A DNA stretch of 64,000 nucleotides from Devosia sp. 66-14 (GTDB lineage Bacteria; Pseudomonadota; Alphaproteobacteria; Rhizobiales; Devosiaceae): positions 239,043-303,042 of the forward strand of contig MKVB01000003.1 in the NCBI GenBank assembly GCA_001899085.1, in the 5' to 3' direction. The notes under the pieces were generated by a model. It did not search any database, had not been told where the DNA came from, and was given only the letters and a program-made list of their open reading frames with translations. Within the stretch, counting starts at the first letter, position 1, and every line of letters starts with the position of its first letter. A program made the position numbers and the translations under genes. Shown in pieces: positions 26,522 to 36,080 of the stretch.

Positions 26522-27111
26522 TGAGTGAGAGTTGCTGGCGCATGCTGACGCAAGGCCTCCAGCAGTGGCAACAGCGGCAGCCCAAGAATGGTGAAATAGT
26601 CGCCGTCGATCCGCTCGAACAGCTGGATAGAGGGGCCCTCGAGGCGGTAGGCGCCGACCGAAGCCAGCACAGCGGCGCCTTCGAGCGCCAGCACCTGATC
26701 GCGTTCCGCAGCGCCGAAGCGCCGCATGGTGAGACTGGCGCTCGACGTGCCCGACCACAATAGCTGCCCGGCTTCGGCCAGCGCCAGGCCGGCGTGGAGG
26801 AAATGCGTGCGCCCGGCCAACCGATCGAGCTGGGCGGCGGCGGCGATCAGGTTCCCAGGCTTGTGCAGAAGCTCGCCCTCGACGGCAAGCACCTGATCGG
26901 CGCCGATGACGACGCCTCGTCTCGCGAGGGACACCGAAAGGGCCTTGGCTTCGGCCAGCCGGCGCGCCACTGCCGGCGCATCGCCGCCTTTCCCCAGCAC
27001 TTCGGCCTCGAGGCGACGCTCGTCGATTTGTGCTGGACTCGTCTCGAATCGAAGCCCGGCCCCGGCCAGCAGGGCCTTTCGCGTCGCGCTCTGGGAAGCA
27101 AGGATCAGCAT
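26518..27111 (-). CDS. Maf-family nucleotide pyrophosphatase
   Basis: This 197-aa protein has the Maf N-terminus 'ILASQSATRKALLAGAGLRFE' and the motif 'VVIGADQVLAVEG' with the catalytic Asp. Maf enzymes hydrolyse non-canonical NTPs such as dTTP/UTP or modified nucleotides, a house-cleaning role, and are also linked to septum inhibition. It is the first gene of the leftward operon and borders the putative origin. Confidence 0.94.
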   Translation of the reverse strand: MLILASQSATRKALLAGAGLRFETSPAQIDERRLEAEVLGKGGDAPAVARRLAEAKALSVSLARRGVVIGADQVLAVEGELLHKPGNLIAAAAQLDRLAGRTHFLHAGLALAEAGQLLWSGTSSASLTMRRFGAAERDQVLALEGAAVLASVGAYRLEGPSIQLFERIDGDYFTILGLPLLPLLEALRQHAPATLTQ

Positions 27112-27119
27112 GCCGTCGG

Positions 27120-27128
27120 TTTTCCACA
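27120..27128 (+). other. DnaA-box-like 9-mer
   Basis: TTTTCCACA differs from TTATCCACA at one position. It is just upstream of the maf start. Confidence 0.45.
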
Positions 27129-27240
27129 CTGTCCTTGTTGGCTCAAGAGCGCTGGCAGTGGAAAAACCCGCCGGCCGATCAGCGGGCCGGGTTCTCCCCG
27201 CTGGGACGGAATCCTTCAACAGCCCGGCCCGGGCGGACCG

Positions 27241-27255
27241 TTAACAAAAGCTTAA
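27241..27255. promoter_or_regulatory. CtrA-type site TTAA-N7-TTAA
   Basis: TTAACAAAAGCTTAA matches the consensus TTAA-N7-TTAA exactly. In Caulobacter, CtrA binding to such sites in the origin blocks replication initiation. Confidence 0.65.
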
Positions 27256-27264
27256 TGTGAGCTA

Positions 27265-27273
27265 TGGGGATAA
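27265..27273 (-). other. DnaA-box-like 9-mer
   Basis: On the minus strand TTATCCCCA differs from TTATCCACA at one position. It lies 10 bp from the CtrA-type site. Confidence 0.45.
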
Positions 27274-27309
27274 ACGGTTGCGGATGGCGCCCCGTCATCA
27301 ACAGGCTCG

Positions 27310-27324
27310 TTAACGGTTCGTTAG
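27310..27324. promoter_or_regulatory. Second CtrA-type site, TTAA-N7-TTAG
   Basis: TTAACGGTTCGTTAG has one mismatch from the CtrA consensus. It is 69 bp from the first site and in the same spacer. Confidence 0.5.
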
Positions 27325-27500
27325 CGATTGTGACATGGTTAAGACTTAGTGAACGGGGCGACTCCGGGCGCGGCGGCTTTCGTTCACAGACGATGATTCA
27401 CAGCCTCCATCCGAGGGGTCGGCCGCGCGCTTCTGTCGCCGCGTCTGTCGTTGTGGGCAAAGCGGAATTCCTGCAAAACACCGCCATGATAATGATGATT

Positions 27501-27516
27501 AAGAATCTAGATTCTT
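27501..27516. promoter_or_regulatory. 16-bp perfect palindrome with two GANTC sites, upstream of hemE
   Basis: AAGAATCTAGATTCTT is fully self-complementary and holds GAATC and GATTC. It ends 16 bp before the hemE ATG, in the most AT-rich part of the spacer. It could be an operator for heme synthesis or an origin element. Confidence 0.6.
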
Positions 27517-27532
27517 TCTGGTTGGTTGGGCG

Positions 27533-28567
27533 ATGACCGAGACGCTGGTGGTGAAACCACTGCTCGAGACGGTGCTCGGACGGCGCCAGCAGCGGCTGCC
27601 GATCTGGATCATGCGGCAGGCCGGCCGCTACCTGCCCGAGTACCGCGAGCTTCGCGCCAGGGCCGGCAGCTTCCTCGAGCTCTGCTACAACCCCGAACTG
27701 GCTGCGGAAGTAACGCTGCAACCGCTCAGGCGGTTCGACCTCGATGCGGCAATCCTCTTCTCCGACATTCTGGTGATCCCCGATGGGCTCGGCCAGGAGG
27801 TTCGCTTCGAGGCCGGTGAAGGCCCGATCCTGGTGCCCGTGACCAGCGACACGGTCTCGGCGCTGGATTCCCAAGGGGCTTTGGAAAAGCTAGGCCCCAT
27901 CATCGAGACCGTTCGCCGGGTTCGTGCCGGGCTTGGCCCCGAAAAGACGCTGATCGGCTTTTGTGGTTCGCCCTGGACCGTTGCCACCTACATGATCGGG
28001 GGGCGCGGTTCGTCCGATCAGGCCGCGGCGCGCGTCTTCGCGCTGACCCAGCCCGAGGCCTTTGCGCGGCTCATCGATATCCTCGTCGAAGCCAGCATCG
28101 GTTACCTCGCGGCGCAGCTGCGGGCCGGCGCCGACGTGGTGCAGCTGTTCGAGAGCTGGGCGCTGAATCTCGATGAGGTGGCGTTCCGCAACTGGGTGAT
28201 CGAGCCGAACCGACGGATCGTCGAAGGGCTGAGGAAGCTTATTCCGGGAGCACCGGTGATCGGCTTTCCGCGGGGCGCGGCCGGCAACCTGCCGGCCTAC
28301 GCGAAGGCCACCGGGGTGAACGTACTGGGGCTCGACTATGCGACGCCGCTCGGCTTTGCCGCCGAGCTGCCGGCGGGGCTCGGCGTGCAGGGCAACCTCG
28401 ACCCGCTGCGTCTGCTGGCCGGCGGCGAGCAGATGGACAATCGGGTGCGCGAGATCGTTGCAGGCTTCCGCGACCGGCCGCATATCTTCAATCTGGGGCA
28501 CGGGATCGTGCCGGAAACGCCGATCGGCCATGTCCAACGGCTGATCGCAGTGGCGCGGGGAGCCTGA
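27533..28567 (+). CDS. hemE: Uroporphyrinogen decarboxylase
   Basis: This enzyme converts uroporphyrinogen III to coproporphyrinogen III in heme synthesis. The 344-aa protein carries the signature 'PIWIMRQAGRYLPEYRE' near the N-terminus, the active-site Asp in 'FSDILVIPD', and 'GFCGSPWTVATYMIGG'. hemJ follows after 4 bp. Its promoter is inside the putative origin, as in Caulobacter. Confidence 0.97.
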   Translation: MTETLVVKPLLETVLGRRQQRLPIWIMRQAGRYLPEYRELRARAGSFLELCYNPELAAEVTLQPLRRFDLDAAILFSDILVIPDGLGQEVRFEAGEGPILVPVTSDTVSALDSQGALEKLGPIIETVRRVRAGLGPEKTLIGFCGSPWTVATYMIGGRGSSDQAAARVFALTQPEAFARLIDILVEASIGYLAAQLRAGADVVQLFESWALNLDEVAFRNWVIEPNRRIVEGLRKLIPGAPVIGFPRGAAGNLPAYAKATGVNVLGLDYATPLGFAAELPAGLGVQGNLDPLRLLAGGEQMDNRVREIVAGFRDRPHIFNLGHGIVPETPIGHVQRLIAVARGA

Positions 28568-33720: not shown

Positions 33721-34370
33721 TGGGCGAGCTCTCGCCCTACTCTGACGGGTTTGCCCGGCCGGAGGCGGCAGTACGCCGCGACCTGGAATCGTTTGCTGCG
33801 CTGCTGAAGAAATGGAACGCGGTGCAGAATCTTGTTTCACGTGAAACAGAGAATGCCCTGTGGTCGCGACATGTCGTCGATTCGCTCCAGATCCTGCCGC
33901 TGTTCCGCCCGAGCGACACGCTGTTTCTCGACGTGGGCTCCGGCGGTGGACTGCCAGCGCTGCCTCTGGCCATCGCCCTCAAGGGCGGGCCGGCGCGCTT
34001 CACCCTCGTTGAACCGATCGGCAAGAAGGTCGCCTTTCTGCGCCAGGTCATCCGGGAGCTCGGGCTGCCGGCCGCTGTCCACGCCGGACGCACCGACGAC
34101 TTTGATTCACGTGAAACACTCGGTGACGGCGCCAGCTTCGACGTGATCACCTCGAGGGCGCTCGCCGCGCTGCCGTTGCTGCTCGAACTTATCCACCCCT
34201 TCTTTGGGCCGGAAACCCGCGCGATCCTGCATAAGGGCCGGGATCACGCTGTGGAGGTCGAGGAAAGTCGTTTGGCGTGGGACTTTGACGTGGTAATAAC
34301 CAAGAGCGCCACCGACGAGGCCGGCGTATTGCTGGAGATCAGCAATTTGCGACGGAAATCAACTCGTTAG
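33720..34370 (+). CDS. rsmG: 16S rRNA (guanine527-N7)-methyltransferase
   Basis: This enzyme methylates G527 of 16S rRNA. The 216-aa SAM-dependent protein has motif I 'FLDVGSGGGLPALPLAI', and 'ITSRALAALPLLL'. Two parS sequences lie in the coding region and encode 'VSRET' (33833) and 'DSRET' (34104). parA follows 23 bp later. Confidence 0.96.
   Translation: MGELSPYSDGFARPEAAVRRDLESFAALLKKWNAVQNLVSRETENALWSRHVVDSLQILPLFRPSDTLFLDVGSGGGLPALPLAIALKGGPARFTLVEPIGKKVAFLRQVIRELGLPAAVHAGRTDDFDSRETLGDGASFDVITSRALAALPLLLELIHPFFGPETRAILHKGRDHAVEVEESRLAWDFDVVITKSATDEAGVLLEISNLRRKSTR
33833..33848. other. Perfect parS inside rsmG
   Basis: TGTTTCACGTGAAACA is the canonical parS in full (16 of 16). It is 6.3 kb from the putative origin. 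Confidence 0.92.
34104..34119. other. Near-perfect parS inside rsmG
   Basis: TGATTCACGTGAAACA, 15 of 16 positions, is identical to the site at 31806. Confidence 0.78.
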
Positions 34371-34393: not shown

Positions 34394-35194
34394 TTGGCTC
34401 CTCGAATCCTGACCCTCGCCAATCAGAAGGGTGGGGTCGGCAAGACCACTACCGCGATCAACCTGGCTACGGCGCTCGCTGCCATCGGCGAGCGCGTGCT
34501 GATCGTCGATCTCGATCCGCAGGGTAACGCCTCGACGGGCCTCGGCATTTCGCGCGTCGACCGTGACGTCTCGAGCTACGACCTGCTGATGGGCGATGCC
34601 AAAGTGGCCGCCGCGGCAGTTATGACCAGCGTGCCGAACGTCGCCATCGTGCCGTCGACGCTCGATCTGCTCGGCGTCGAGCTCACCATCGCCCAGCAGG
34701 CTGACCGTGCCTTCCGGTTGCGCGATGCTTTCCGGGCGATGAGCGACCTGACCATTAACGGCCAGGCGGTCAGCTATGTGCTGATCGACTGCCCCCCGTC
34801 GCTCAACCTCCTCACCATCAACGCGCTGGTCGCTGCCGACGCCGTGTTGGTGCCTCTGCAGTGCGAGTTCTTTGCGCTCGAGGGTATGAGCCAACTGCTT
34901 CAAACCATTGAACAAATTCGTACCACCCTGAATCCGCGACTGTCGATACAGGGTGTTGTGATGACGATGTTCGATCGCCGCAACAATCTCAGCGAACAGG
35001 TCCTGGCCGACGTCCGTTCGGAGATGGGGTCGCTGGTCTACGACACGGTAATACCGCGCAATGTCCGGCTGTCCGAGGCGCCATCCTATGGTAAGCCGGC
35101 GCTGCTCTATGACCTCAAATGTGCCGGCAGCCAGGCTTACCTGCGCCTTGCTACCGAAGTGATCCGGCGTGAGCGCCAGCTCATGGCCGCATAA
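34394..35194 (+). CDS. parA: Chromosome partitioning ATPase ParA
   Basis: This Walker-type ATPase moves ParB-parS complexes over the nucleoid. The 266-aa protein has the deviant Walker A 'KGGVGKTT' (residues 12-19), 'VLIVDLDPQGNAST' and 'VLIDCPPSLNLLT'. The start is TTG at 34394, supported by CGGAGG seven bases upstream; no ATG fits. It is of the short chromosomal type, without an N-terminal HTH. Confidence 0.96.
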   Translation: MAPRILTLANQKGGVGKTTTAINLATALAAIGERVLIVDLDPQGNASTGLGISRVDRDVSSYDLLMGDAKVAAAAVMTSVPNVAIVPSTLDLLGVELTIAQQADRAFRLRDAFRAMSDLTINGQAVSYVLIDCPPSLNLLTINALVAADAVLVPLQCEFFALEGMSQLLQTIEQIRTTLNPRLSIQGVVMTMFDRRNNLSEQVLADVRSEMGSLVYDTVIPRNVRLSEAPSYGKPALLYDLKCAGSQAYLRLATEVIRRERQLMAA

Positions 35195-35204
35195 GGAAGT
35201 TGGA

Positions 35205-36080
35205 ATGAACGAGAAACCATCACGGCTCGGGCGTGGCCTCGCGGCGCTGATCGGCGATATGGCGACGATGGAAGGGGCGCGCCTGGCTGATGGCAGCAGC
35301 TCGAAGCGCCTGCCGGTCGACTTCCTGATTGCCAACCGCGCCAACCCGCGTCGCGACTTCGACCCGGATCAGTTGGAGGAACTGACCAGCTCGATCCGCG
35401 AGAAGGGCGTGATGCAGCCTCTGCTGGTGCGGCCGACCAATGATCCGAACCAGTTCGAGATCATCGCCGGCGAGCGCCGCTGGCGCGCTTCGCAGCGGGC
35501 TGGCCTCAACGACGTGCCGGTGATCATCCGTGACGTCGACGACAAGGAGGCGCTCGAACTCGCGATCATCGAGAACGTCCAGCGCGTCGACCTCAACCCG
35601 CTCGAGGAAGCCATGGGCTACGGCCAGCTGATCGAGCAGTTCGACTACACCCAGAACGACCTGGCCCAGGTGATCGGCAAGTCGCGCTCGCATGTCGCCA
35701 ATACGCTGCGGCTGCTGAAGCTGCCGGACGATGTCCGCGGCATGCTGGCGAGCGGCGAGTTGACGGCGGGCCATGCGCGCACGCTGATCACGGCCGACGA
35801 TCCGGTGGCGCTGGCCAAACGCATCGTGGGCGGCGGGCTTTCGGTGCGCGAAGCTGAAGCGATGACGCAACGCGAGATCAACGCCCCGAAAAAACGGCCG
35901 GCAGCGGCGCCGGAGCAAAAAGATGCCGATACTGCCGCGCTCGAGAAGCGGCTCTCGGATGTGCTCGGCCTGCACGTGGCGATCGACCACAAGGATCAGG
36001 GTGGCCGGCTCGAGATCCGCTATCGGACGCTCGAACAGCTCGACGGTATCTGCATGAAGCTGACCGGTTACGGGGTGTAG
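35205..36080 (+). CDS. parB: Chromosome partitioning protein ParB
   Basis: This CTPase/DNA-binding protein loads at parS and spreads. The 291-aa protein has the N-terminal ParA-stimulating 'SRLGRGLAALIGD', the CTP-binding 'IIAGERRWRASQRAG' and 'ENVQRVDLNPLEEA', the HTH 'NDLAQVIGKSRSHVANTLRLLKLP', and a C-terminal dimerisation domain. It is in an operon with parA. Confidence 0.97.
   Translation: MNEKPSRLGRGLAALIGDMATMEGARLADGSSSKRLPVDFLIANRANPRRDFDPDQLEELTSSIREKGVMQPLLVRPTNDPNQFEIIAGERRWRASQRAGLNDVPVIIRDVDDKEALELAIIENVQRVDLNPLEEAMGYGQLIEQFDYTQNDLAQVIGKSRSHVANTLRLLKLPDDVRGMLASGELTAGHARTLITADDPVALAKRIVGGGLSVREAEAMTQREINAPKKRPAAAPEQKDADTAALEKRLSDVLGLHVAIDHKDQGGRLEIRYRTLEQLDGICMKLTGYGV

Follow-up and report, generated by a model that had tools for sequence, protein, structure and literature searches.

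The maf-hemE spacer

The window, meaning the whole 64-kb stretch of DNA analysed, covers positions 239043-303042 of contig C3 of Devosia sp. 66-14 (genome G000; 5.72 Mb, 13 contigs). It contains a 421-bp intergenic spacer (27112..27532, no strand), which polarity switch and site clustering mark as the putative chromosomal origin. On the left the spacer is bordered by maf (Maf-like protein, PF02545; 26518..27111, minus strand), which starts at 27111 and reads leftward. On the right is hemE (uroporphyrinogen decarboxylase, PF01208; 27533..28567, plus strand), which starts at 27533 and reads rightward. Among named records this hemE comes nearest to those of Devosia (at most 87% identity), in a search that may omit the genome itself and very close records. 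The limits of the spacer and the flip in gene direction given in an earlier note on this DNA are exact. Hallmarks of hemE-linked alphaproteobacterial origins include more than 300 bp directly upstream of hemE, which amounts to 421 bp here, and above-average AT content, which is 42.3% in the spacer and 34.4% in the window. The AT-rich end claimed earlier is also present, with 57.3% AT in the last 75 bp.

The spacer length is largely kept among relatives. maf lies 408-502 bp from the hemE match in 25 of 30 hemE loci of the genus and family, own locus included. This range leaves out G018, G004, G006, G029, and G009, in which maf is absent within 1.5 kb, while all five are kept in the motif counts. 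Among 18 same-genus relatives, G008 (broken hemE match) and G013 (no hemE match) contribute no spacer to the counts.

The AT-rich end comprises the block GAATTCCTGCAAAACACC (27465..27482, plus strand), an unwinding region or hemE promoter that is found 62-95 bp before hemE across the family. With up to 4 mismatches it occurs in 32 of 38 Devosiaceae loci and in 0 of 38 reversed-sequence controls; a looser form occurs in 6 of 89 loci outside Devosiaceae and in 2 reversed controls. The end beside hemE may be the hemE promoter, instead of or besides an unwinding region. It also contains a 16-bp perfect palindrome, AAGAATCTAGATTCTT (27501..27516, no strand), read from the sequence. The DnaA-trio has no match in the AT-rich stretch before hemE when compared by eye. 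Four further blocks failed the conservation control (Devosiaceae loci vs reversed): CGTTAACGG (34 vs 17), CGACTCCGG (26 vs 19), TTCTGTCGCC (16 vs 9), and CGTTGTGG (36 vs 37).

Papers are cited here by PMC number and from excerpts. COG1806 (ppsR, PF03618) is the far flank of the hemE-linked origin in Caulobacter and Rickettsia (PMC1914354). maf stands in its place in the Devosiaceae spacer, because ppsR is absent: PF03618 has no match in the 37 Devosiaceae genomes (G000-G036). Of 24 genomes from other families of the order, 22 have it; in 18 of these 22 it sits no more than about 0.7 kb from the hemE match on a shared contig, and in the remaining four it is on another contig. In 25 of 30 named non-Devosiaceae loci maf is 1.1-1.5 kb from hemE, leaving room for ppsR. 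Most simply, ppsR would have been lost and maf would have become the neighbour of the origin.

CtrA-type and DnaA-type sites

CtrA: An exact CtrA-type site, TTAA-N7-TTAA, occurs at 27241..27255 (plus strand) and is conserved in relatives. Two copies with one mismatch follow on the same strand, at 27310..27324 and 27339..27353, the latter being exact in the aligned relatives G017 and G001. The earlier note was right about the exact site, but it counted a single one-mismatch copy. The spacer thus has the several conserved CtrA-type sites of the Caulobacter Cori type, one exact and two with one mismatch. It holds three of the four CtrA-type sites (up to 1 mismatch) of the window, for which shuffles give a mean of 0.86, with 2 of 100 shuffles reaching 4. 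In 484 kb of the own contig (19 sites in total) it is the only 421-bp stretch with three.

Within 420 bp before hemE, 16 of 17 loci of the genus have exact sites (24 in total, against a shuffle mean of 0.0), as do 19 of 21 loci from the rest of Devosiaceae (25 in total; shuffles average 0.1). Adding G034, which is without one, and G021, which has one, brings the total to 36 of 40 Devosiaceae loci, vs 12 of 89 outside the family; this survey took in all 80 named loci, and its order part leaves out G038 (no hemE match), G042 (51 bases upstream), and G044 (hemE at the contig edge). The idea that exact CtrA-type sites are restricted to Devosiaceae was dropped, as 6 of the 68 named loci from outside the family carry one, and so do 6 of its 21 order-mates; together these are the 12. 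Several of these non-Devosiaceae spacers are AT-rich, where chance sites are likelier. All three Cohaesibacter loci (L122, L124, L140) have exact CtrA-type sites before hemE, perhaps as an independent gain.

An alignment of 13 genus spacers places the CtrA-type sites and the DnaA-type 9-mers at 27120 and 27265 in conserved blocks, which G016, G010, and G005 keep less well. The genome encodes a CtrA protein (425.7 bits; family cut-off 350). CtrA control of the origin, as put forward in the earlier note, gains support from this gene and from the family-wide conservation of the sites, which would be where CtrA binds and represses.

DnaA: The spacer contains two 9-mers one mismatch from the DnaA box TTATCCACA, as previously noted, namely TTTTCCACA at 27120 (plus strand) and TTATCCCCA at 27265..27273 (minus strand). 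An exact TTATCCACA is absent from the spacer. TTTTCCACA is part of the conserved block TTTTCCACACTGTCC (27120..27134, plus strand), which 24 of 38 Devosiaceae loci share when up to 3 mismatches are allowed, vs 0 of 38 reversed controls. TTATCCCCA falls within a block conserved in relatives as GTGGGGATAAC (up to 2 mismatches; 24 of 38 loci, 1 of 38 reversed controls). The number of one-mismatch 9-mers in the window is near chance (6 vs a shuffle mean of 2.87; 6 of 100 shuffles reach 6). What makes the sites notable is that two of them fall together with three CtrA-type sites; the spacer is the only 421-bp stretch with two DnaA-type sites in 484 kb of the own contig (21 sites in total).

The family has few strong boxes. 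Exact DnaA boxes number 2 in 38 Devosiaceae loci, vs 6 in 14 Rhizobiaceae-type and 5 in 7 Sphingomonad loci, and one-mismatch boxes number 55, 37, and 19, respectively; this group comparison of CtrA and DnaA sites uses a hand-picked, hand-grouped 30 of the 68 named non-Devosiaceae loci, with 4 duplicate Devosia loci dropped. A further 9-mer, TGATTCACA (27394..27402, plus strand), is present as claimed and was read from the sequence. It overlaps a GANTC and is an approximate match to the consensus of the Caulobacter G-box. The strict IHF site WATCAANNNNTTR does not occur in the spacer. The 6-kb stretch holding dnaA contains neither CtrA-type nor DnaA-type sites.

GANTC sites

GANTC, the CcrM-type site, occurs five times in the spacer by pattern match (no strand): at 27209..27213, 27360..27364, and 27395..27399, the last overlapping TGATTCACA, and at 27503..27507 and 27510..27514, both in the palindrome AAGAATCTAGATTCTT. 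The cluster of four described earlier (27360-27514) stands, with a fifth site at 27209 raising the total. The density of one per 300 bp then given as expectation does not hold, since the window has one per 853 bp. The window has about a quarter of the GANTC sites expected (75 vs 316 from shuffles), so the cluster is rarer than had been supposed (five in 421 bp, Poisson P = 1.6e-4 at window density).

The genome encodes a CcrM-type methyltransferase with N6_N4_Mtase and RAMA domains, the domain pair of CcrM. CcrM control of initiation may be a candidate reading of the observed GANTC cluster. In Caulobacter, methylation is reported not to be required for initiation control, and the same paper cites extra chromosomes under CcrM over-expression (PMC3973325). 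GcrA (PF07750) has no match in the own genome, though the Caulobacter control matched; CtrA and the CcrM-type enzyme are present in the own genome.

Replication polarity and partition genes

Octamers: In bacteria whose FtsK reads GGGNAGGG octamers, these are oriented from the origin towards the terminus. The nearest single-contig relative is G014, of the same genus (one 5.03-Mb contig; hemE 90% identical), and was sampled in 40 spread and 20 local 20-kb stretches. In G014 the octamer polarity switches near hemE and again opposite hemE. The 40 stretches have 101 forward and 30 reverse octamers in 2.22-4.85 Mb vs 41 and 118 elsewhere (LLR 39.7). A free two-break fit is best at 2.00 and 4.85 Mb (LLR 40.7; 0 of 1000 permutations as good), and a half-split of the same stretches is best at 2.225 Mb.

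Breaks were compared on all 60 stretches, with the terminus fixed opposite hemE at 4.733 Mb. With all octamers the best break is at 2.232 Mb (LLR 38.8), while the spacer (2.217 Mb) reaches 37.3 and dnaA (2.538 Mb) 29.2. Without GGGGAGGG it is at 2,213,688 (2.214 Mb; LLR 58.1), with 55.9 for the spacer and 33.4 for dnaA. The best break is thus 15 kb from the spacer with all octamers and 3 kb with the filtered set, and dnaA is 321 kb away. The filtered counts omit GGGGAGGG as a repeat-like variant seen as paired repeats, a choice made after seeing the data. In G014 it occurs in pairs about 50-85 bp apart at many places (e.g. C1:31548 and 31631), and it is probably a dispersed repeat.

For the own genome, being in 13 contigs, polarity and skew are drawn on the contig of the spacer. 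Octamers there count 18/30 to the left and 45/31 to the right of the spacer (P = 0.027), or 6/14 and 22/5 when filtered (P = 7e-4). The break is coarse; it is best at 248,919, 17 kb from the spacer, with near-ties over 205-270 kb. At the coarse resolution of ten stretches each, octamers differ between the hemE arms in all four further Devosiaceae (unfiltered Fisher P: G035, 1.6e-5; G024, 0.015; G019, 6.8e-5; G028, 4.9e-5), the first three being one contig each and G028 two contigs. In the 10 relatives with both genes placed, dnaA is 50-348 kb from hemE.

GC skew: The skew steps up across the spacer in the own contig (0.006 to 0.060) and in G014 (-0.054 to -0.009). A skew minimum elsewhere, for example near dnaA, had been named in the earlier note as evidence against an origin here. 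In G014 the best free two-segment fit to raw GC skew does miss the spacer (3.6-4.85 Mb, not hemE), but the half-chromosome contrast (best at 2.225 Mb) and the octamers pick it, and dnaA fits worse. The polarity switch expected of a hemE-linked origin is thus given by the octamers, and raw GC skew by itself is ambiguous as an origin locator in G014. In G035 the skew difference between the arms has the opposite sign to that expected. TA skew in G014 gives no clear break. A strict dif-like pattern (E. coli-like) has no match in 8 genomes, so the terminus is placed solely by octamer polarity.

Taken in the hemE direction, GC skew averages above zero on either arm of the own contig, G014, G035, G024, G019, G028, and G054. 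The whole-sample mean is 0.020-0.047 in the six relatives, a pattern that a single physical strand enriched in G around the whole chromosome would give (t-test P = 4e-8 in G014 and 0.01-0.03 in G035, G019, and G028; not significant in G024 and G054). This positive offset is one cause of the messy raw GC skew.

Partition: ParA and ParB are encoded 7-9 kb from the spacer, by the gene calls parA (34394..35194, plus strand) and parB (35169..36080, plus strand; longest frame, start codon uncertain). A perfect parS, GTTTCACGTGAAAC, is found by pattern match at 33834..33847 (no strand) as the sole exact copy in the window. Allowing up to 2 mismatches, there are 13 parS-like sites in the window and 16 in G014. 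Those of G014 are all found from -55 to +46 kb relative to the spacer, and none occurs in those of the 60 stretches that were sampled farther out.

Comparison with known origins

Caulobacter crescentus: Like the spacer, Cori is intergenic and beside hemE, and contains several CtrA-type sites by weak DnaA-type boxes, GANTC, and a parS within 8 kb (PMC1914354, PMC4468827, PMC3973325). In contrast, the spacer is flanked by maf instead of COG1806, has no strict IHF site, and has an approximate G-box. A CtrA-rich, DnaA-weak contrast is described for Cori (PMC4468827). The Devosiaceae spacer has the same contrast, and the spacer of the window is therefore classed as working like Cori, but not as a Cori member, since the IHF site was not found in it.

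Rhizobiaceae: Rhizobiaceae-type bacteria, S. meliloti included, belong to the same taxonomic order as Devosiaceae, and the Rhizobiaceae-type hemE loci sampled likewise have an intergenic region before hemE with GANTC above shuffles. Their DnaA boxes are stronger and more numerous, and an exact CtrA-type site is present in 1 of 14 loci, whereas 35 of 38 Devosiaceae loci have one. The Sinorhizobium meliloti origin is set apart by description, being reported without CtrA motifs (PMC4433202).

Rickettsiales and Hyphomonas: The predicted origins of Wolbachia, Ehrlichia, Anaplasma, and Rickettsia resemble the spacer in being about 400 bp long and beside hemE, and DnaA, CtrA, and IHF sites are predicted in most (PMC1914354). 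Unlike the spacer, their far flank is COG1253 or COG1806, and their genomes are AT-rich, where chance sites come easier. Hyphomonas neptunium belongs to another order than Devosiaceae. There, CtrA binds next to the origin by ChIP-seq, a likeness drawn by description (PMC7200025).

The literature searched on Devosia and replication origins or CtrA yielded no study of a Devosia origin. A paper that mentions Devosia ran Ori-Finder on many chromosomes, so a computed Devosia prediction may exist (PMC9756655). A family of Hyphomicrobiales with conserved CtrA-type sites at its origin offers one more case for asking whether direct control of replication by CtrA arose several times or disappeared in rhizobia, and natural contrasts are available within the same order.

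Interpretation of the spacer

The maf-hemE spacer is very probably the chromosomal replication origin of Devosia sp. 66-14, judging from sequence comparison. The proposal made earlier is borne out by octamer polarity, the local skew step, the parS cluster, and conservation. DnaA would assemble on a few weak boxes (27120, 27265, 27394) and open the AT-rich end beside hemE. Phosphorylated CtrA would occupy the three CtrA-type sites (27241-27353), located between DnaA-type boxes, and keep DnaA away in cells barred from replicating, the mechanism put forward for Cori in Caulobacter. ParB bound to the parS sites close by would then separate the new origins. The exclusion of DnaA by phosphorylated CtrA on the three sites is reasonably likely.

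The spacer features could instead belong to hemE expression, with the block at 27465-27482 followed by GATAAT as promoter and the palindrome at 27501-27516 as operator, and the octamer and skew breaks are placed no more finely than about 3-20 kb. Such a role in place of initiation is improbable, as no other 421-bp stretch in 484 kb clusters CtrA-type and DnaA-type sites and the spacer length is kept at 408-502 bp wherever maf was placed next to hemE (25 of 30 loci). In Caulobacter and Rickettsia, too, the origin lies on this side of hemE (PMC1914354). Still less credible, and very improbable, is an origin near dnaA or elsewhere with the hemE spacer as a relic. The free two-segment GC-skew fit in G014 does bypass hemE, but dnaA scores 22 log units below the spacer when the octamers are filtered and 8 below when they are not. 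Between hemE and dnaA, G014 has the polarity expected beyond hemE (28/10 filtered, 73/53 unfiltered), and the 6 kb around dnaA is devoid of both site types.

A different doubt concerns the CtrA step. The spacer may be the origin while its CtrA-type sites serve hemE or maf transcription only, with no CtrA control of initiation. In S. meliloti, CtrA does not bind the origin (PMC4433202), and loss of CtrA binding to Cori has no more than a mild effect on the cell cycle under laboratory conditions (PMC4468827). The S. meliloti origin is, however, the one reported without CtrA motifs, whereas the sites here are kept family-wide near DnaA-type boxes, and a purely transcriptional role is accordingly considered rather unlikely.

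GANTC within parS sites

Eight parS-like sites of the window contain GANTC (9650, 18599, 26506, 29018, 31770, 31807, 34104, and 54913). Among parS-like sites with a CACGTG core, GANTC is present in 8 of 12 in the window and 11 of 14 in G014 (11 of 16 of all G014 parS-like sites), vs 8-12% of random parS variants. It is also present in 31 of 31 such sites in 29 Devosiaceae hemE loci and in 35 of 36 in 68 named other loci (34 loci with any such site), counts that are non-independent, as one site is often seen again in related genomes and the hemE loci all cover a single place. Across 61 genomes of the order, the changed base at GTTTCACGTGAANC is T in 37, G in 2, and C in 1 of the matches listed (hand count), 10 of the 37 T coming from one genome. 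The bias among these matches has a binomial P of 7e-15 vs one third, if they are independent. Perfect parS without GANTC is likewise common in genomes of the order. Among 115 genomes drawn from across the class, 6 have the exact variant GTTTCACGTGAATC, including the own genome and one other of the order.

These data allow a tentative and somewhat doubtful proposal, that in Hyphomicrobiales, and most strongly in Devosiaceae, many origin-proximal parS sites are built to contain GANTC. Fork passage would leave such parS hemimethylated, and the methylation state could couple ParB loading or origin segregation to replication. If true, together with a CtrA-site-rich origin, initiation and segregation of one family would be under both cell-cycle regulators. 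The overlap may also be explained without methylation, if ParB tolerates T best at the changed base, but three sites with a neighbouring base also changed still read GANTC.

In the literature searched, the excerpts of PMC9040568, PMC11514494, and PMC5172544 included, no description of the overlap was found. They do report GANTC sites about 500 bp from plasmid parS sites (PMC9040568), one GANTC near predicted parS sites that may serve partition of a repABC module (PMC11514494), and GANTCs measured at the Caulobacter parS locus (PMC5172544). The hemE loci of Mesorhizobium and Aminobacter have a GANTC-bearing parS-like site within the hemE coding sequence itself (about position 2818, e.g. L117 and L128).
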